DNA of 64,000 nt from Alphaproteobacteria bacterium (GTDB taxonomy: Bacteria > Pseudomonadota > Alphaproteobacteria > Reyranellales > Reyranellaceae), in contig JAHBYP010000003.1 of NCBI GenBank assembly GCA_019635875.1, forward strand, positions 310,001-374,000, in the 5' to 3' direction. Both the position numbers and the translations under genes were made by a program. Positions within the stretch are counted from its first letter, which is position 1. The number at the start of each line of letters is the position of its first letter. A model generated the notes under the pieces. It did no database searches, had not been told where the DNA came from, and was given only the letters and a program-made list of their open reading frames with translations. Below are positions 65 through 23,935 of the stretch, in pieces.

Positions 65-1567
65 ATGACCGCCCGCAAGCCCTCGACCATCTGCATCGGC
101 GCCGGCCCGGCCGGCCTCACCGCCGCCTACCACCTGTCCAAGGCGGGCGCGCCGGTGACCGTGCTGGAGCGCGACCCCGTCAACGTCGGCGGCATCTCGC
201 GGACCGAGAGCTACAAGGGCTTTCGCTTCGACATTGGCGGCCACCGCTTCTTCTCGAAGTCGCGCGAGGTCGAGGCGCTGTGGGACGAGATTCTCGGCGA
301 CCAGTTCGTCGACCGTCCGCGCAAGTCGCGCATCTTCTATCAGCGCAAGCTGTTCGATTATCCCCTGAAGGCGTTCGACGCACTGATGAAGCTAGGCATC
401 GTCGAGTCGATGCTGTGCATGGTCTCCTACGGCAAGGCCAGGCTGACGCCGATCGCGCAACCCAAGAGCTTCCAGGACTGGGTCACCAACCAGTTCGGCC
501 GGCGCCTGTTCGGCATCTTCTTCAAGACCTACACCGAGAAGGTGTGGGGCATGAAGTGCACGGAGATCTCCGCCGACTGGGCGGCGCAGCGCATCAAGGG
601 CCTGTCGCTGGGCACCGCGGTGATGAACGCGCTGTTCCCCAGGAAGCCGAAATCGAAGGAGGCCACGATCAAGACGCTGATCGACAGCTTCCGCTATCCC
701 CGCCTCGGGCCGGGCCAGATGTGGGAGGCGGCCGCCGCCCATGTCGAGCGCCGCGGCAACCATGTGCATCGCGGCCACGACGTGGTCGGCCTGTCACGCG
801 ATGCGGCCACCGGCCGCTGGACGGTGACGACGCAGGATGCGTCGGGTGCCCGCCATCGCTATGACGCCGACAACGTCGTGTCGAGCGCCGCCATCGCCGA
901 TCTCGCCGGGTACCTGCAGCCGGCGCCGCCGGCCGAGGTGCTGACGGCCGCGCGCGCCCTGCGCTATCGCGACTTCATCACGGTGGCACTGGTCGTCAAG
1001 GACAAGGGCCGCTTCGACGACAACTGGATCTACATCCACGAGCCCGGCGTGAAGGTCGGCCGCATCCAGAACTTCAAGTCGTGGTCGCCCGACCTGGTGC
1101 CCGACCCGACGCTCAACTGCTACGGCCTCGAGTATTTCTGCTTCGAGGGCGATGATCTGTGGGTGGCGAAGGACGAGGACCTCGTCGCGCTGGCGCGCCG
1201 GGAACTGGTGCAGCTGGGCCTGGCGGCCAACGAGGACATGGTCGACGGCCACGTCATCCGCCAGCCCAAGGCCTACCCGGTCTACGACGACCACTACCAG
1301 GACAACGTCCAGACCGTTCGCGCCTGGGTCGAGCGCGACATGCCCGGCCTGCATCTCGTCGGCCGCAACGGCATGCACAAGTACAACAACCAGGACCACG
1401 CCATGATGACGGCGCTGCTGGCGGCGGAGAACATCCTCGCCGGCCACCGCAAATGGGACGTCTGGCAGGTCAACCAGGACGCCGAGTACCACGAGGCAGG
1501 CGAGGACCGCTCGCTGGCGCTCGACTCCGGCCGCCTGGTGCCGACACGGATGGCGCCGGCGGAGTGA
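65..1567 (+). CDS. FAD-dependent oxidoreductase, UDP-galactopyranose mutase-like
   Basis: A 500-aa flavoprotein. The N-terminus has a Rossmann dinucleotide-binding motif (GAGPAGLTAAYHLSKAG, about residues 12-28) followed by an acidic strand end (VLERD) and the GGI(S)RT and GGHRFF signatures shared by protoporphyrinogen oxidase and UDP-galactopyranose mutase-like flavoproteins. The C-terminus keeps an FAD-contacting segment (GLHLVGRNGMHKYNNQDHA). Proteins of this type are common in cell-surface polysaccharide loci, where they act on or isomerise nucleotide sugars; that role is inferred here. It is not a typical short UGM (about 370-390 aa) and the substrate is unknown. It follows the partial upstream gene closely and converges on the membrane protein at 1613-3358. 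Confidence 0.75.
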   Translation: MTARKPSTICIGAGPAGLTAAYHLSKAGAPVTVLERDPVNVGGISRTESYKGFRFDIGGHRFFSKSREVEALWDEILGDQFVDRPRKSRIFYQRKLFDYPLKAFDALMKLGIVESMLCMVSYGKARLTPIAQPKSFQDWVTNQFGRRLFGIFFKTYTEKVWGMKCTEISADWAAQRIKGLSLGTAVMNALFPRKPKSKEATIKTLIDSFRYPRLGPGQMWEAAAAHVERRGNHVHRGHDVVGLSRDAATGRWTVTTQDASGARHRYDADNVVSSAAIADLAGYLQPAPPAEVLTAARALRYRDFITVALVVKDKGRFDDNWIYIHEPGVKVGRIQNFKSWSPDLVPDPTLNCYGLEYFCFEGDDLWVAKDEDLVALARRELVQLGLAANEDMVDGHVIRQPKAYPVYDDHYQDNVQTVRAWVERDMPGLHLVGRNGMHKYNNQDHAMMTALLAAENILAGHRKWDVWQVNQDAEYHEAGEDRSLALDSGRLVPTRMAPAE

Positions 1568-1577
1568 CTTGGTGTTC

Positions 1578-1607
1578 AGTCCGCGCGGCTCCTGCGGCGC
1601 GGACCAA
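1578..1607. terminator. GC-rich hairpin between convergent genes
   Basis: An inverted repeat (GTCCGCGC ... GCGCGGAC with a short interrupted loop) lies in the 45-bp gap between the convergent genes ending at 1567 and 1613. It could end transcription from both sides. There is no long T-run, so the call rests on position and symmetry. Confidence 0.4.
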
Positions 1608-1612
1608 CAACG

Positions 1613-3358
1613 TCAGCGCACCACGTAGAGCCGATACCCCGATTTGGGATCCAGTGGCCGTTCGATCAGCCAGTCGGGCGGCCGTCCTTCCTTGAGGGCC
1701 GCCCAGAGCGTGCCTTCCTTGGCCCGATTCTTCGTGCAAACCAGTACCGCCCTGGCCTTGGTCGCGGCGAAGCTGGCCGGCACCGACGTGCCCGCGAAAC
1801 GTGTCTCGTCGAAGGCGTCCATGCTTCGCATGATCAACCGCTCGGCGCGGTGATAGGGTCCCGCGACCATGATCGCGCGCGTGAAATAGAGGATCTCCGG
1901 CGCGTCGCTGAACGGCGTCAGCACGATTTCGCCGGTCAGCGGCTCGAGTTCCTGGCTCAGCGGCCGCGGATCGCAGGAGCCGGCTCGACGCTCCGTGCTA
2001 TTGTCGGCGGGAAACGCCGACGACAGGACATAGGGTCCGACCAGCAGCCCGAGCCACGCGGCGACCAGGGCCAGGCGCGAGGCCCGCGACTCTTCGCGGC
2101 GCGTGAGGATCTCGATCGTCACGCCCAGGGCCACGACCGACGCCAGCTGCGGGTACATGGCGAAGCGCACGTGCTTGAAGCCGATATAGAGCAGGAAGGC
2201 AGCGAAGGCGGTCAGCAGCAGCGCCATCGGCGTGCGCGTGCGCCACAGCAGCGTGCCCGTCGACGCCGCCAGCACCAGCGCCGGCAGCGCGATCATCAGC
2301 GCGAGATTCTCCAGTGAGCTGATCGGCCGCATCTCGGCGACGTATTGCCAGACGCGCTCGATCGCCTCGGCCGAGAAGATGCCGCCCGCGCCCTTCAGGA
2401 CCCCGGGGTAGTGCACGACCCAGGCGATGAGCGGCACCGCGAGGATCGCGCCCGCGATGATGGACGCCAGCCAGGGCGAGGCGACGGTCGGCACGAAGCT
2501 GCGCAGGATCAGCGGGATGACGAGCATTCCCGCGCCCAGCTCGACATAGGGCAGCGAGAGCCGATCGACCTCCAGCGCCAGGCGGCCATTCGCCGGCGGG
2601 TCGACCAGCAGCGCCAGCAGCAGGACGGCAAGATGCCCGGCCGCCAGCGCCAACGCCCGCGGCCCGACGCGTCGCTCGGCCTCGACGTCGCGCAGCGCTG
2701 CAATACCCCAGGCGAACAGCAGGAAGGGCAGCGCCTCGGGGCTCATCCATTCGCCCAGGCCGCCCAGCGCACCGGCGGCGATCGCCGGCATCATGCCACG
2801 CCCTCCGATGCCGGCAGCATAGGCCAGCGCCGGCATGATCACCGCGATGGCCGACAGCATGACGTGGTGATCGGCGCGGCCGAACGCGCCATAGGCGACG
2901 ATGCCGGGCGCCATCGCGGCCAGCACCGCCGCAGTGATCGCGTGCCGTCCGCTGCCCGCCGCCAGCCGCACCGCCTGGAAGGTGGCCAGCGCGACCAGCA
3001 CGGTGCTCACCGGCCCGACCGCCGCGCCGGCTAGGCGCAGAGATTCGCCCAGCGGCAAGAACAGACGCAGCGGCAACGACAGCAGCAGGATCAGGCCGTC
3101 GAGCAGATGCGTCCAGTGCAGCCCGATGTTCAGCCCGCTGTTGTCGCGCGGCGTGTGGTGCAGCGCGCGGCCGGCCTCCACCATGGCCTCGATGCGGCTC
3201 ACCCGGGCGTAGGAGTCGGTGTCGATCAGCTTGCCGTCGAACACGCCCTGCAGGTTGCCGGCCACGAGCGAAGTGGCGGCGCAGGCAAGGACGATGGTTA
3301 CCACCAGCAGGGTGGAAGGTCGCGGCGGGATCGTGGGGCGGATCTGGTCAGCGGACAC
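1613..3358 (-). CDS. polytopic GT-C/STT3-like membrane protein
   Basis: About 581 aa with 11-13 predicted hydrophobic segments and a soluble C-terminal stretch of roughly 100 residues. An acidic motif (IDTDSYAR) follows the first membrane segment. A second motif in an early loop (GRADHHVML) resembles the first- and second-loop acidic/His motifs of oligosaccharyltransferase STT3/PglB/AglB-like GT-C enzymes that use lipid-linked sugars. From the family, transfer of a lipid-linked sugar outside the membrane is possible but not shown. The open frame extends upstream to 3448, but the extra N-terminus is not hydrophobic; I prefer GTG at 3358, just before VSADQIRPT. A surface-sugar role would fit the flavoprotein that converges on it. 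Confidence 0.6.
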   Translation of the reverse strand: MSADQIRPTIPPRPSTLLVVTIVLACAATSLVAGNLQGVFDGKLIDTDSYARVSRIEAMVEAGRALHHTPRDNSGLNIGLHWTHLLDGLILLLSLPLRLFLPLGESLRLAGAAVGPVSTVLVALATFQAVRLAAGSGRHAITAAVLAAMAPGIVAYGAFGRADHHVMLSAIAVIMPALAYAAGIGGRGMMPAIAAGALGGLGEWMSPEALPFLLFAWGIAALRDVEAERRVGPRALALAAGHLAVLLLALLVDPPANGRLALEVDRLSLPYVELGAGMLVIPLILRSFVPTVASPWLASIIAGAILAVPLIAWVVHYPGVLKGAGGIFSAEAIERVWQYVAEMRPISSLENLALMIALPALVLAASTGTLLWRTRTPMALLLTAFAAFLLYIGFKHVRFAMYPQLASVVALGVTIEILTRREESRASRLALVAAWLGLLVGPYVLSSAFPADNSTERRAGSCDPRPLSQELEPLTGEIVLTPFSDAPEILYFTRAIMVAGPYHRAERLIMRSMDAFDETRFAGTSVPASFAATKARAVLVCTKNRAKEGTLWAALKEGRPPDWLIERPLDPKSGYRLYVVR

Positions 3359-17183: not shown

Positions 17184-19448
17184 TTAGGTCAGCTTAGCCC
17201 CGCACTCGTCGGCAGCTGCTTGGACTATGTCCGCGACGTCGCGCAGGAATTGATTGCGCTCAAGCGACGGTGTGAGGTCTGGAATTGGAGCAGCAGGATC
17301 AAAGATCTCCGTTCCAATGATCTCCGCACGCTCAAAGGTCGATCCCTTGCCATGTTTGTTATAAGCAGCCTGCCACTCTTCAACTTTGTTCTTCCACACG
17401 CGGCGGTTTGCGAGAGCGAGCACCCGGCGTGCGATGTTGTCCGCCAGCGCATCCACAATCACTTGTTTCTGATCATCATCAGGCTCGTCTCCGCCCCACT
17501 CGTGAGGACTCTGAAGGAAGACGTACATGCGATCCTGCAACTCTTTCCGCAGGTCAGCCACGGGCTGGAGAGAATCGTAGTGATCCGCCATTCCGGTGGC
17601 GAGCCGCCGACTCAGCGCTTTCACGCGTGTCCAATGCTCCTTGCCAACACCCGGCTTGAATTCAAGACCGAGACGCGCGAACCACGCTGCATGAAAGCTT
17701 TCCGCTGCTGACTTGACGGCCAGCACAAGATTCATCCGGTCATACCGTGGCACCGCTGGCCCGCGCGGAATCGACTTTGTGACTTCCGCAAGGAGTTCAA
17801 ACAGCTTCTCAAGCTGATTGATAGTCCGGGTGCCTGCCTTTGTTGTCTTGGACAGCGGCTTGTCGATGCTCTCCAAGAAGACACGCGCGGCGTCTATGCG
17901 CTTCCGAAGAGCACGCTCTGCGAGAGGACCCAGGTCCTCGCCGATAGCCGAAAGCACATTCTCGGCCGATGCCATGACATGCTGCACCTTCGCACTTGGC
18001 GACGGCAAATTGTCACCCTTGACCTCATCGAAGTGCGTAAAGATCAGGATTTGCTTTGAGGCATTGCCGGAACTCACCAGCTCACGCATTGCTGCGACGG
18101 TCGCGGCCTGCATCGGCTGCATTGCATTGTCGACGACAAGCACTGCGTCAACCTCTTCGATGCGACGGCTAACCGCCGTTGAAACCGAGCCAGTTGTCTT
18201 GGGCGTATGACCGAGCCCCTCACCATCTAGCAGTGCTACCTTCGGCCTCGGCCCCCGCTCTCGCCAACTCGGCATAAACGGACCGGCAACTCGAACGCCA
18301 TTGACCAATGGCGTCAGCAACTGACCAAAGTACTTCGCATAGTTACTTGAGAATCGAGTTACCGCGCGTATGAACGCGGCGCGATCATTGGTCTCCCAAG
18401 ACCACGACAACGGCCACCCTTGCTTCGTGCGATTGACCAGATTGCGATCAAGCAGGTCGAAGCGCTTCTCAATTTCGTCGAAGAGGTCGTCTACGACCTC
18501 GTGGAACTGCTCGTCGTCGCGCGCTGCCTTGTCGAATACCTCTTCGAATAGCTCGTCAACGACGCGTTCGTCAGCTTCGGTTGTCGCGCCCAACTCTTGG
18601 CGCAACGCATCACCATGACGCTGAGCGATCTGCCTCAGCCGCGAAACTGAACTGGCCAGTATCTCATTCGTTTCGTGGAGATCGACAGCCTCGAACGCCT
18701 GTTCTGCGGTAAGCTCTAGCTCCTCGTCATCATCTTCCATCCCATCGAAGTCGGACTTAGTGGACGACGGCCCGTTACCAAGGACATAGCCGAATCGGTA
18801 ACGCTGGTTGACATGATTGAGCATGCGCCGAAGGACTTCTGCATCGGGCGCCTTCCCATATGCGGCGAGGGCAGCGGCCGACGCACATTCGGTAAGGTAT
18901 TCACGAGTTTCCTCGGCGGAAACAAAGGTGACAGCGGCCCTATATGGCCCATCGGCGACAATGATCTCCGTATCGTGGACGGTAGTCTTGGCAGTGGAGG
19001 TCGACGGAAAGCGCTCGGCTTCCGGATCGGTACCGATCAGCTGGCGCGCGAGCGTTGTCTTGCCGGCGCCAGTGGTCCCGAGGAGAAGCGCACGGATGTA
19101 CCCGTCATGCTCGGCGTCGGGAAGGCGGATGATCTTCTCGCGGATAAGGCGAAAGTCCGTCTCCTCCGGTATCAGCTTATAGAAGAAGATCTCGACGACG
19201 CGCTTATCGAACCGCCGCTCGGCCTCTGCACGGGCCGCGGCATTGTGATACGTCGATTCCGCAAGCAATTCGTTGAGGTCTGCCAGAAGGCGCCGTGCCT
19301 CTGATTCGTCTCGCGTTCCGAGGCCCTGTCTGACTCGAACGCCCGGCTTGCCGGTCGCATCATCCGTTCGAACCGGATGACGGAAGATCACCGAGAAACC
19401 GGACCGCCCCTGGCTCTTGCTCAGGCTCGCGGTATAGGCCTTTGCACT
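17184..19448 (-). CDS. large P-loop GTPase with integrase-arm-like N-terminus
   Basis: A 754-aa soluble protein. Residues 1-70 (SGFSVIFRHPVRTD, then RVRQGLGTRDESEARRLLAD) resemble the N-terminal arm/SAM-like DNA-binding region of tyrosine recombinases, but no catalytic recombinase domain follows. Near residue 125 starts a GTPase/ATPase core: P-loop LLLGTTGAGKTT, a possible G3 in LLDGEGLGH, and a G4-like FTHFDE. An acidic insert (GMEDDDEELELTAEQ) precedes long helical segments, and the C-terminal 300 residues look helical as in dynamin-like or AIG1-type proteins. The start is fixed by GGAGG five bases before GTG 19448. It is monocistronic, of visibly lower G+C than its flanks, and next to other accessory genes. 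A mobile-element or defence role is inference; the family was not recognised with certainty. Confidence 0.7.
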   Translation of the reverse strand, partial: SAKAYTASLSKSQGRSGFSVIFRHPVRTDDATGKPGVRVRQGLGTRDESEARRLLADLNELLAESTYHNAAARAEAERRFDKRVVEIFFYKLIPEETDFRLIREKIIRLPDAEHDGYIRALLLGTTGAGKTTLARQLIGTDPEAERFPSTSTAKTTVHDTEIIVADGPYRAAVTFVSAEETREYLTECASAAALAAYGKAPDAEVLRRMLNHVNQRYRFGYVLGNGPSSTKSDFDGMEDDDEELELTAEQAFEAVDLHETNEILASSVSRLRQIAQRHGDALRQELGATTEADERVVDELFEEVFDKAARDDEQFHEVVDDLFDEIEKRFDLLDRNLVNRTKQGWPLSWSWETNDRAAFIRAVTRFSSNYAKYFGQLLTPLVNGVRVAGPFMPSWRERGPRPKVALLDGEGLGHTPKTTGSVSTAVSRRIEEVDAVLVVDNAMQPMQAATVAAMRELVSSGNASKQILIFTHFDEVKGDNLPSPSAKVQHVMASAENVLSAIGEDLGPLAERALRKRIDAARVFLESIDKPLSKTTKAGTRTINQLEKLFELLAEVTKSIPRGPAVPRYDRMNLVLAVKSAAESFHAAWFARLGLEFKPGVGKEHWTRVKALSRRLATGMADHYDSLQPVADLRKELQDRMYVFLQSPHEWGGDEPDDDQKQVIVDALADNIARRVLALANRRVWKNKVEEWQAAYNKHGKGSTFERAEIIGTEIFDPAAPIPDLTPSLERNQFLRDVADIVQAAADECGAKLT

Positions 19449-19460
19449 CACGATTGCCTC

Positions 19461-19540
19461 CGTTGTTCCGTTGTTGTGCCGAAACTTACCTGACAATGCC
19501 GATGCCGGTCAAGTAGATTTGGAACAACATCGGAACAACG
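19461..19540. promoter_or_regulatory. GGAACAAC repeats at the GTPase promoter (putative operator)
   Basis: GGAACAAC occurs at 19521 and 19532, 11 bp apart on the same strand. An inverted copy CGTTGTTCCG (19461-19470) pairs exactly with CGGAACAACG (19531-19540). The cluster spans the leader upstream of GTG 19448. Spacing of one helical turn and symmetry suggest a protein-binding site, possibly for autoregulation by the gene's own DNA-binding-like N-terminus. Confidence 0.45.
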
Positions 19541-19947: not shown

Positions 19948-20597
19948 TCACCCCTTCGCATACGGATTCCTCGGCTTCCGCATCACGATCCTAATCGGCG
20001 TCCCGGCAGATCGAAATCCTCGCGCAGCCGGTTCGCCAGATACCGCTCGTGCGATTCCGGCAGATCCGCCGGCCGGCTCACGAACAGCGCGAAGGTCGAC
20101 GGGCGTGACTTCACCTGCGAGCCGTAGCGCAGCTTGATGCGCCGTCCGTCGACCAGCGGCGGCGGGTTGCGCTCGATCGCCTCGCCGAGCCAGCGACTGA
20201 ACTGCAGCGTCGGTACGCGGCTGTTCCACGCCTTGTGCAGCTTCACCACCGCGGGCATCAGCTTGTCGACGCCGCGGCCGGTGCGCGCGGAGAAGCCGAC
20301 GATGGGGATGCCCCTGACCTGCGCCAACGAGGCCTGCAGGCGGTCGGTGAGCTTCTTCCACTGCTCGTTGCGCGCCTTGTCGGTGGCGCCCAGCAGGTCG
20401 GTCTTGTTGACCGCCAGCACCAGGCTGCGGCCCTCCTCGATGACGTGGCGCGCGATAGTGAGGTCCTGCTTCTCCATCATCTGCTGCGCGTCGAGCACCA
20501 GCACCACGATTTCGGCGTAGCGGATCGCCTCCTCGGTGCCGCGCGCCGACAGCGCCTCCAGCCGCTCGCTGACATTGGTACGACGGCGCAGGCCGGT
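19948..20597 (-). pseudogene. truncated, frameshifted 3' copy of der
   Basis: About 650 bp nearly parallel to the 3' half of the intact der at 22520-23168. The protein text runs from RRRTNVSERLEALSA through LVLDAQQMMEKQDL and NKTDLLGATDKARNEQWKKL. The copy lacks the 5' half, and homology stops abruptly at about 20597. One C is missing in GGCGTCCCGGCAG (intact copy GGCGTCCCCGGCAG), shifting the frame before the C-terminal RIVMRKP-NPYAK segment, which continues in another frame to a stop at 19948. Divergence of roughly a tenth of the bases suggests a fragment from a related strain rather than a fresh duplication. With intact der it forms direct repeats around the 1.9-kb cargo. Confidence 0.88.
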
Positions 20598-20657
20598 GGC
20601 AAGAACCTTGCGCTCCGCTCCTTTTCCCGGCAGGCGGAACGTTTGTATACTGGAGCC

Positions 20658-20879
20658 ATGAACGCCACTCTCCTGCGCGAGATCGGCAAGCTCAGCGTCG
20701 AGGAACGCCGGGCGCTGATCGACGATATCTGGGACAGCATCGAGGCCGAGCAGACCCTGCCGCCGCTCGACGCGGCCCAGGCCGCCCTGCTCGATGAGCG
20801 CCTGAAGGACTCGATCGAGCGACCGGACGAGCAGACCTACACGTCGCAGGAAATCGCCGCGCGCGCTCAGCGACCGTGA
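20658..20879 (+). CDS. addiction module antitoxin component (orphan)
   Basis: A 73-aa acidic protein, MNATLLREIGKLSVEERR, with IDDIWDSIEAEQTLPPL, matching the small 'putative addiction module component' family whose members are usually followed by a RelE/ParE-type toxin gene. No toxin-sized frame follows: 20880-21129 holds only a gene fragment and a promoter-like region. GGAG lies two bases before the ATG and a TATACT hexamer just upstream. It is probably the remaining half of a toxin-antitoxin pair in the der-flanked island. Confidence 0.65.
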   Translation: MNATLLREIGKLSVEERRALIDDIWDSIEAEQTLPPLDAAQAALLDERLKDSIERPDEQTYTSQEIAARAQRP

Positions 20880-21129: not shown

Positions 21130-21729
21130 GTGGCTACCGCGAAATTGCACATCAACCTCACTCAGGGGCTGATCGAGGCCGAAGGTGACGAAACTTTCGT
21201 CCGAGTGGTTTACGACGACTTTAAGGAGCGGCTCAGGGCCCAGCCAGCAAAGCAACAGACGCTGCACGCTGCGAATAAAGAAGGCGAGCAACCGAATGCT
21301 CAGGACACTGCGCGGCGGCCGAAGGCTCGGCGCAGGGCGGCCGCACCGAAGACTTCAACTCGTGGCGAGGCAGAACCCAAAGGCAGTGCCGGCGGCATGA
21401 CTAGTTATGAGCCGCGCCGCTTGCCTGATCTAGACCTTTCACATTTGGCCGACTTCGTTAAGTCGTTCACGTTCAAGGGCAACCCTGAGCGTTATGTGGT
21501 GTACACGCAGTTCCTTAAGGAAAAGCTCCAGATCGAACCGTGCACGATCGACCACCTCTACTCTTGCTTTGACGAAATGAAGGACACACTTCCCACAAAT
21601 ATGGGGCAAAACCTAGTCGACACTCGCTTACGCAATTCGTTCCTGAAGTTTACGACACCGCAAGACATCCAACTCACAGTCACCGGGATCAACCACTATA
21701 ACAAGATGCTTAGGGCAGCAAGTAAGTGA
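21130..21729 (+). CDS. unknown protein A of a two-gene accessory unit
   Basis: 199 aa, unrecognised. Residues 1-35 (KLHINLTQGLIEAEGDETFV, then RVVYDDFKERL) predict two strands and a helix. Residues 36-95 are a basic, low-complexity linker (ARRPKARRRAAAPKT). Residues 110-195 form a helical domain (FKGNPERYVVYTQFLKEKL ... DHLYSCFDEMKDTLP ... LTVTGINHYNKML) that parallels the N-terminal domain of the next protein. The GTG start has GGGGG upstream. The stop overlaps the next GTG (GTGA), so the two are translationally coupled. G+C is visibly below the neighbourhood and codon use is more relaxed. Confidence 0.7.
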   Translation: MATAKLHINLTQGLIEAEGDETFVRVVYDDFKERLRAQPAKQQTLHAANKEGEQPNAQDTARRPKARRRAAAPKTSTRGEAEPKGSAGGMTSYEPRRLPDLDLSHLADFVKSFTFKGNPERYVVYTQFLKEKLQIEPCTIDHLYSCFDEMKDTLPTNMGQNLVDTRLRNSFLKFTTPQDIQLTVTGINHYNKMLRAASK

Positions 21730-22472
21730 GCGCCGACCGCTTTTACGAGTCAATTCCCAAGAGCTATCACGGGCAGGATCGAGGCACCGTCACGTATTTC
21801 GTGTACTATCTCACGGAGGAGAAGGGGCAAAAGGCGGCCACGGCTAAGTCCTTGAAGCAGTGCTTCATGGACTGTCATCTCCCTGTGCCCGGACGGATTG
21901 CGCAGTACCTCTCAGAAGGGCTTACGAGCAACCCTGTCCTCTTCGTTAAGGTTCCAGAAGGGTATCGCCTGGAGCGAAACCGTAGGAGGATCATCGCATC
22001 ATCGCTGGGCGTCCGTAAGGAAGTCGTGCAGACGAGCAGCACGCTTCGCGCGCTTGAGAGCGACATTACCGATCCGCAGACCAAGGACTTCCTTAAGGAA
22101 GCAATCGACTGCTACGAGGCAGGCGCCAACAGAGCGGCTGTCATCATGACGTGGGTACTCGCGTTCGATCACTTCCTGAATTGGCTCTTCTCGAACAAGC
22201 TTACCGAGTTCAATCGGCAACTTGCGGCAAAGGCCGGGATGAGCAAGGCCAAGACCGTTGCTAAGATCGAGGATTTCGAAGAAATAAACGAGGACCACAT
22301 CATTACGACGTGTCGATCGGCAACTATCATCACGGCTGGGGTTCAGAAGACACTTAAGCAGAGCCTCGACATACGAAACTCCGCCGCCCATCCGTCTGAC
22401 GTGAAGATCGGACCAGCTAAGACGGTTGCGACGATTGAGGATCTCGTGGAGAACATCCTCAAAAAGTACTAA
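21726..22472 (+). CDS. unknown protein B with C-terminal HEPN-type domain
   Basis: 248 aa. Residues 1-95 (FYESIPKSYHGQDRGTVTYF, then VYYLTEEKGQ ... LKQCFMDCHLPVP ... VKVPEGYRL) share pattern with the C-terminal domain of the preceding protein. Residues 115-248 are helical (FLKEAIDCYEAGANRAAVIM, then TWVLAFDHFLNWLF) and end with DIRNSAAHPSD. Here R-NSAA-H fits the RX4-6H motif of HEPN ribonucleases or their inactive relatives. HEPN proteins are widespread in toxin-antitoxin and anti-phage systems; RNase activity here is inference. GTG at 21726 overlaps the upstream stop. Confidence 0.7.
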   Translation: MSADRFYESIPKSYHGQDRGTVTYFVYYLTEEKGQKAATAKSLKQCFMDCHLPVPGRIAQYLSEGLTSNPVLFVKVPEGYRLERNRRRIIASSLGVRKEVVQTSSTLRALESDITDPQTKDFLKEAIDCYEAGANRAAVIMTWVLAFDHFLNWLFSNKLTEFNRQLAAKAGMSKAKTVAKIEDFEEINEDHIITTCRSATIITAGVQKTLKQSLDIRNSAAHPSDVKIGPAKTVATIEDLVENILKKY

Positions 22473-22519: not shown

Positions 22520-23935
22520 CTAGCTCTTCGCGTACGGATTCTTCGGCTTGCGCATCACGATCCGGATCGGCGTCCCCGGCAGATCAAAATCCTCGCGCAG
22601 CCTGTTCACCAGATACCGCTCATACGACTCCGGCAGGTCCGCCGGCTTGCTCACGAACAGCGCAAACGTCGGCGGGCGCGACTTCACCTGCGAGCCGTAG
22701 CGCAGCTTGATGCGCCGGCCGTCGACCAGCGGCGGCGGGTTGCGCTCGACCATCTCGCCGAGCCAGCGGTTGAACAGCGGCGTCGGCACGCGGCTGTTCC
22801 ACGCCTTGTGCAGCTTCGCCACGGCGGGCATCAGCTTGTCGACGCCGCGGCCGGTGCGCGCCGAGAAGCCGACGATCGGCAGGCCCTTGACCTGCGCCAG
22901 CGAAGCCTGCAGGCGGTCGGTGAGCTTCTTCCACTGCTCGTTGCGCGCCTTGTCGGTGGCGCCCAGCAGGTCGGTCTTGTTGACCGCCAGCACCAGCCCG
23001 CGGCCCTCCTCGATGACGTGACGCGCGATGGTGAGGTCCTGCTTCTCCATCATCTGCTGCGCGTCGAGCACCAGGATCACGACCTCGGCGAAGCGGATCG
23101 CCTCCTCGGTGCTCTTCGCCGACAGCGCCTCGAGACGCTGGCTGACATTGGCGCGCCGGCGCAGGCCGGCGGTGTCGATCAGGCGGATCGGCCTGCCCTC
23201 GTGCATCCATTCGACCGCGATGGCGTCGCGCGTCGTGCCCGCCTCCGGCCCGGTCAGCACGCGCTCATCGCCCAGCAGGCGGTTCAGCAGGGTCGACTTG
23301 CCGACATTGGGCCGGCCGACGATGGCGAGCTGGATCGGGCGCGACGGGTCGGGGCCGCTGTCCTCGACGTCCTCCGCCGCGTCGTCGGGCGCCTCGTCCT
23401 CGAACGGCGCATCCTCCTCGGGCTGCGGTTCCGGCAGCTTGCCCAGCACGCGGTCGAGCGCATGGGCGATGTCGCCGATGCCGATGCCGTGCTCGGCCGA
23501 GACCGGCACCGGATCGCCCAGGCCCAGCGCATGGGCTTCCGCAATGCCGGGATCGGCGGCGGCGCTCTCGGCCTTGTTGGCGATGACGATGGTCTTGCGC
23601 GCGTGGCGGCGCAGCCACTGGGCGAAGGCGCGATCGAGCGGGGTCAGCCCGGCGCGCGCGTCGATCACGAGGAGCACGGCGTCGGCTTCGCTGACGGCGC
23701 GTTCGCTCTGCTTGCGCATGCCGGCCTCGAGCCGATCGCCCACCGCCTCCTCCCAGCCGGCGGTGTCGGTGAGGACGACCTCGCGGCGGCCGATGGTGGC
23801 GTTGGCTTCACGGCGGTCGCGCGTCGTGCCCGGCTCGTCGGCGACGATCGCCATGCGCCGCCCGGCCAGCCGGTTGAACAAGGTCGACTTGCCGACATTG
23901 GGCCGGCCGACCAGGGCGATGCGGGGGCGGGTCAT
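22520..23935 (-). CDS. der: ribosome biogenesis GTPase Der (EngA)
   Basis: A 471-aa essential double GTPase for 50S assembly. The first G domain has VGRPNVGKSTLFNRL near the N-terminus and DTAGWEE. The second, near residue 205, has GRPNVGKSTLLNRLL, with DTAGLRRRANVS and NKTDLL. The C-terminal KH-like domain ends RKPKNPYAKS. An acidic linker (EPQPEEDAPFEDEAPDD) separates the G domains. It is complete, and its 3' half is duplicated in decayed form at 19948-20597. bamB and the TPR gene lie upstream on the same strand. Confidence 0.96.
   Translation of the reverse strand: MTRPRIALVGRPNVGKSTLFNRLAGRRMAIVADEPGTTRDRREANATIGRREVVLTDTAGWEEAVGDRLEAGMRKQSERAVSEADAVLLVIDARAGLTPLDRAFAQWLRRHARKTIVIANKAESAAADPGIAEAHALGLGDPVPVSAEHGIGIGDIAHALDRVLGKLPEPQPEEDAPFEDEAPDDAAEDVEDSGPDPSRPIQLAIVGRPNVGKSTLLNRLLGDERVLTGPEAGTTRDAIAVEWMHEGRPIRLIDTAGLRRRANVSQRLEALSAKSTEEAIRFAEVVILVLDAQQMMEKQDLTIARHVIEEGRGLVLAVNKTDLLGATDKARNEQWKKLTDRLQASLAQVKGLPIVGFSARTGRGVDKLMPAVAKLHKAWNSRVPTPLFNRWLGEMVERNPPPLVDGRRIKLRYGSQVKSRPPTFALFVSKPADLPESYERYLVNRLREDFDLPGTPIRIVMRKPKNPYAKS

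Follow-up and report, generated by a model that had tools for sequence, protein, structure and literature searches.

Two short, adjacent genes of low G+C content lie between repeats of der in a 64,000-nucleotide stretch of an alphaproteobacterial genome (the window), and they raise the question of whether their products form an immune module, a toxin–antitoxin pair, or a regulator. The reading favored here, with a probability of roughly 0.6, is that of a mobile two-protein module in which protein A would hold or trigger a putative HEPN RNase, protein B, that acts in abortive infection. The two proteins amount to ~450 residues together. In agreement with the original prediction, the coordinates of the open reading frames show a GTGA overlap of the two genes (Table 1), and across 13 intact loci A and B overlap by up to 14 nt or are separated by up to 9 nt. 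The low G+C content that had been described is likewise observed, with ~52–56% over the A–B unit versus 70–74% in der and beyond. A promoter-like sequence belonging to the unit, which had also been claimed, was not recovered: a scan with the sigma-70 consensus found 0 sites versus 0.7 expected by chance, a result that is weak evidence either way.

Table 1 Features of the A–B unit and its flanks (positions are those of the window).
Feature	Position	Strand	Description	Basis
Partial der copy (3' part)	19954..20599	-	Left flank of inserted segment	91% identity to intact der
Gene A	21130..21729	+	199 aa; beta-beta-alpha start, disordered basic linker, C-terminal winged helix	ORF, AF2 model
A residues 5-36	21142..21237	+	Beta-beta-alpha module, KLHINL..IEAEGDETFV..	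Alignment, AF2
A residues 38-90	21241..21399	+	Basic linker, predicted disordered	pLDDT ~40-55
A residues 103-198	21436..21723	+	Winged helix, homologous to B N-terminal domain	AF2, hhalign
Start/stop overlap of A and B	21726..21729	+	GTGA	Sequence
Gene B	21726..22472	+	248 aa; N-terminal winged helix, C-terminal HEPN domain	ORF, AF2, VIA-align
B residues 11-95	21756..22010	+	Winged helix (DtxR/MntR-type, Z ~8)	AF2, hhalign, VIA-align
B residues 99-248	22020..22469	+	HEPN domain	AF2, VIA-align, PADLOC, PDB profile match
RNSAAH	22374..22391	+	HEPN Rx4H active-site motif (R217, H222)	Sequence, alignment
Intact der (GTPase)	22523..23935	-	Right flank of inserted segment	ORF, repeat comparison

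The AF2 model of B, which was built from 14 relatives, has a mean pLDDT of 89 and consists of a winged helix (residues ~11–95) followed by a helical domain. With VIA-align, this second domain superimposes on the HEPN structure 2hsb with a Z of 11.2 (rmsd of 2.5 for 108 aligned residues) and on other HEPN structures with slightly lower values (2q00, Z 10.0; Csm6, 8.6; MtlR, 8.5; HepT, 8.3). Raw Foldseek searches with the models of A and B returned zero matches at E <= 0.001 (best E of 0.18, for B), and the HEPN and winged-helix assignments rest on VIA-align, the motif, and profile matches. The defining motif of HEPN domains is Rx4-6H, located where helix 3 ends, with a polar N, D, or H following the Arg (PMC3710099). 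In B, R217-N-S-A-A-H222 is found at the end of a helix that spans residues 204–221, with Asn following the Arg, and the predicted domain has the four-helix HEPN fold. The RNxxxH motif is present in 13/13 intact loci compared. The HEPN-like C-terminus proposed for B is thus found with confidence, both as a motif and as a predicted fold. Sequence matches of this domain to named families are modest, and those to HepT, DUF4145, and RiboL-PSP all fall under their cut-offs.

The motif also bears on a reading of the pair as a regulator of RNA or transcription outside defence, in which two winged-helix proteins would control an operon and the HEPN domain would bind RNA, as proposed for MtlR. The HEPN domain of MtlR is itself a structural match of B, and HEPN domains that lack the motif are thought to be non-catalytic (PMC3710099); the motif is, however, invariant in the intact A–B loci, and the patchy distribution and mobile settings of the pair are ill-suited to a housekeeping regulator. 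Neither protein could be assigned to a housekeeping pathway with Pfam, NCBIfam, PADLOC, or PHROGs, and a regulatory role of this kind is considered improbable.

Protein A has zero family matches in these four collections. In its AF2 model, the C-terminal winged helix has pLDDT values of mostly 86–97 and matches winged-helix structures with Z ~8. The short beta-beta-alpha start that had been proposed for A appears in the model at low confidence (strands 6–10 and 13–17, helix 21–36; low pLDDT), and the pattern of residues 5–36 is conserved among A relatives. The basic linker is present as described and is predicted to be disordered. Alignment of the C-terminal profile of A with the N-terminal profile of B by hhalign gave a probability of 97.4% (E 1e-11), compared with a best value of 1.3% for 30 column shuffles. 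Judged by these profiles, the domain that A was said to share with B is the same, homologous winged helix in both proteins.

The two genes also occur together. In an even sample of the class Alphaproteobacteria, strong matches to A were found in 7/385 genomes, and these are exactly the 7 that encode a winged-helix B; no two-domain B homologue without A was found. Three more matches to A in this sample are weak and cover the winged helix only; L053, one of the three, resembles an A-type gene that stands alone. At a further locus (L011), a B-type gene is accompanied by a different, divergent small partner in place of A. The distances among A proteins correlate with those among B proteins (Mantel r=0.87, a value that 0/10,000 permutations reach). 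An A relative lies directly before a winged-helix B in Prolixibacteraceae (L002), on an Ochrobactrum plasmid (L005), at five additional loci (L010, L018, L019, L021, and L022), on two viral contigs (L015 and L016), in two genomes recovered by searching the phylum of Kocuria (L068 and L069), and in one recovered by searching the phylum of Prolixibacteraceae (L073). The same order and coupling are seen in three phyla, including Bacteroidota and Actinomycetota, and on a plasmid and two viral contigs, and A–B is a real unit whose members travel together. At the level of the order, the pair is confined, among 76 genomes, to that of the window and to a single degraded copy. Single-protein queries yielded no close viral homologues of the window A and B, and no B homologues were found in phage records; the two viral loci were recovered only with an alignment query. 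Similarly, tblastn of A on plasmids gave no match because A diverges faster than B, and the plasmid copy was recovered through B. No paper on the two-gene unit was found in the literature.

Some of these loci carry additional proteins. On both viral contigs, a zinc-ribbon protein that by eye is DUF4145-like is encoded some kilobases from A–B (L015, 875–1624, minus strand; L016, 433–1221, minus strand). An extra small protein upstream of the unit (L021, 371–889, plus strand) and a divergent one beside the unit at L011 (671–1204, minus strand) each have an 'LxPLDxxxxxR' start and a winged-helix-like tail.

In the window, the pair sits between repeats of der, as had been reported; these are 647 bp long and 91% identical, and the copy within intact der spans 22526–23172. 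A duplication of the 3' part of der with the same breakpoint (der position ~764–766) is observed in two genomes of the genus, that of the window and L065. The der gene may repeatedly attract insertion or recombination; no integrase that targets der was identified for the island. A same-genus genome (G005) has der, a short der fragment, and a PF09720 antitoxin gene, and contains ~350 bp of unrelated sequence in place of A–B. Since A–B is absent at the same site, the cassette is not shared with that relative and the site is variable. The PF09720 'Unstab_antitox' gene of the window (20658–20879, plus strand, E 4e-9) is an orphan that occupies the same place in G005; no toxin gene was found after it, and the window locus is a lone A–B insertion beside an orphan antitoxin gene. 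A second accessory gene of low G+C content beside the der repeat (17184–19496, minus strand) encodes a 770-aa P-loop protein. Its N-terminus resembles, by eye, an integrase arm domain, and its PADLOC matches are only weak (mad8, E 1.7e-4; LeoBC).

Elsewhere, the unit has defence neighbours at some loci only: AbiEi/AbiEii (L003), a DUF4238 Abi-type gene (L005), a C5 cytosine methylase with a nearby nicking-endonuclease match (L071), and a CAP12-type TIR (L002). A small set of neighbourhood controls gave generic ATPase-type matches only, plus three single weaker matches; several loci rich in defence genes were included manually, and the comparison is an anecdote rather than a measured enrichment. 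Many, and probably most, chromosomal copies of A–B sit among housekeeping genes. This placement, together with a neighbour test that is not a clean enrichment, counts against the favored reading.

Decayed copies are informative for a plain toxin–antitoxin interpretation, in which a labile antitoxin A would neutralize a HEPN toxin B and repress the operon through its winged helix, and the pair would stabilize an island, plasmid, or prophage instead of serving in defence. The layout, in which a small gene precedes and overlaps the HEPN gene, is like that of such systems, the pair is present on plasmid and phage contigs, and two decayed loci keep A and have a broken B. At one of these (L004), B is truncated after ~40 residues; at the other (L023), a stop lies within B. 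Locus L020 displays the reverse: the A relative is broken by two TAA stops (2269–2815, minus strand) and B is intact, which speaks mildly against A as an indispensable antitoxin. The same locus fits poorly with killing by the RNase when A is missing. In addition, A bears a B-type winged helix and not a typical antitoxin tail, its front module varies widely, and the distribution of the pair is sparse. A toxin–antitoxin role without defence is consequently viewed as unlikely, though not negligible. At L004, the truncated B (1462–1677, minus strand) is followed by an HNH endonuclease gene, which may reflect the exchange of one effector for another.

Comparison of the loci further reveals variation at both ends of the unit. 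The front end of A is of a KLHINL type, a KIRFIM type, or a zinc ribbon (L002, L077, and L078). At L077 and L078, the zinc-ribbon A and the winged helix of B are kept and B has a different helical C-terminus, which at L077 matches PD-Lambda-5_A (E 4e-5). At HEPN-only variant loci, the protein in the position of A matches the PADLOC candidate PDC-M34A (L070, E 1e-41; L071, E 3e-51; weakly at L024 and L074), and its HEPN partner is without a winged helix. The partners at these loci are 235–262 aa long and the HEPN proteins 172–188 aa, and the HEPN-only proteins tested have zero PADLOC model matches. Effector and partner modules are thus swapped between loci. A resemblance of the beta-beta-alpha start of A to a similar-looking C-terminal stretch of the PDC-M34A-like partner was also considered, and homology was rejected, as 12/200 shuffles score equally high. 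At L075 (1489–2829, minus strand), a HEPN domain of the B type is fused to the C-terminus of a protein that looks tyrosine-recombinase-like.

In the favored reading of an abortive-infection module, B would be a HEPN endoribonuclease, probably dimeric, that acts through R217 and H222 and has an added winged helix, and A, its dedicated partner, would combine the homologous winged helix with the basic linker and the small beta-beta-alpha module. In the uninfected cell, A and B would be co-translated and would associate, either winged helix to winged helix or through a nucleic acid that both bind, and the HEPN active site would be silent in this complex. On infection, A may bind a component of the phage or a nucleic acid that infection produces, or such a ligand may compete for the winged-helix site, and B would be released or activated. 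The freed enzyme would cut RNA and halt growth before phage release. tRNA is a common target of HEPN proteins. Several observations are consistent with this scheme: the predicted HEPN fold and its canonical motif; the relation of the HEPN domain of B to the experimentally found anti-phage PD-T7-3 and to 'Dandelion-HEPN'; the correlated distances and the occurrence in the same 7/385 genomes; the shared order and coupling in three phyla, on a plasmid, and on two viral contigs; the exchange of the effector behind a similar partner (L077 and L078); and the defence neighbours at L003, L071, L005, and L002. The closest working precedent for such gating is retron-Kva2 (PMC13405049). The original prediction of a HEPN unit and candidate defence system is therefore supported, with RNase activity and defence as its putative components.

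In bacterial immunity, HEPN RNases count among the most frequent killing domains, but how they are silenced and woken is known for few. The A–B unit represents a minimal two-protein case in which no RNA guide, reverse transcriptase, or ATPase was found, and it predicts gating of a HEPN RNase by a pair of winged helices. Material for a test exists in the divergent copies from several phyla and in copies that are naturally broken (A without B, and B without A). A broader proposal is tentative and rather doubtful at present: exchangeable HEPN-type RNases, mostly with a matching winged helix, might be controlled by winged-helix partners whose front modules (beta-beta-alpha, zinc ribbon, or PDC-M34A-like) are exchangeable too, as a widespread, modular family of stand-alone immunity from which retron-type systems of winged helix and HEPN could derive.

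Among known systems, type IX retrons are similar in that a winged-helix protein and a HEPN RNase, of 27 kDa and 19 kDa, are encoded together (PMC13405049). In retron-Kva2, reverse transcriptase, msDNA, and the winged-helix protein form a complex in which a HEPN dimer is sequestered; tRNA is cleaved by HEPN once D5, a protein of phage T5, acts as the trigger (PMC13405049). The A–B unit could be imagined as a relative of these retrons that lacks the reverse transcriptase and whose sensor scaffold is some other structured nucleic acid (DNA or RNA), which might be supplied in trans. The sizes of the two retron proteins are close to those of the PDC-M34A-like pairs, and the winged helices of A and B align weakly with the retron-Eco1 (Ec86) effector. 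The likeness in size, however, proves nothing, and the comparison is one of architecture only. Furthermore, the window contig has no reverse transcriptase (the sole RVT_1 match of the genome is on contig C5), and no known RNA families were found at the locus. The type IX HEPN protein also lacks the canonical Rx4H and uses H64/R122 instead (PMC13405049), whereas B has RNSAAH and its own winged helix. A–B resembles a type IX retron in outline yet is not a member, and such a relationship is considered very unlikely. The pair nevertheless suggests that the winged-helix and HEPN core of these retrons may have counterparts free of reverse transcriptase.

The type VII toxin–antitoxin system HepT–MntA shares the HEPN fold (Z 8.3) and the arrangement of two small adjacent genes. 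It differs in that B scores 12.7 bits against a HepT cut-off of 60 and in that A, which has no Pfam match and is modelled as a winged helix, is not a nucleotidyltransferase. The candidate PDC-M34A, on which no paper was found, corresponds to the A-position protein at the HEPN-only loci (L070 and L071), whereas the window A itself matches zero PADLOC families. The closest sequence likeness of B is to PD-T7-3 (E 3.6e-6 for residues 107–223, over profile positions 6–121 of 432), a match given by 13/14 relatives too, and, with a profile, to the PDB chains Dandelion-HEPN (E 2.7e-7) and Dandelion (E 2.1e-6) of entries 9wx2 and 9wxf, for which no describing paper was found. PD-T7-3 was obtained by functional selection for anti-phage activity, and 6/21 systems found there have HEPN similarity (PMC9519451), and length and common matches suggest that it forms one family with Dandelion. 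The homologous HEPN domain of these proteins is N-terminal in chains of 432–460 aa with a long C-terminal region; B, in contrast, carries a winged helix at its N-terminus, ends with the HEPN domain, and has A as its constant partner. It is not of the long single-protein kind that is represented by L012 and L014, which match PD-T7-3 at near full length. The statement that neither gene belongs to a named system thus holds for A and for the two-gene unit, which has no counterpart among the systems of Pfam, NCBIfam, PHROGs, or PADLOC, and does not hold for the HEPN domain of B. This domain is not new, being of the PD-T7-3/Dandelion anti-phage kind; the novelty is its two-gene arrangement with winged helices.
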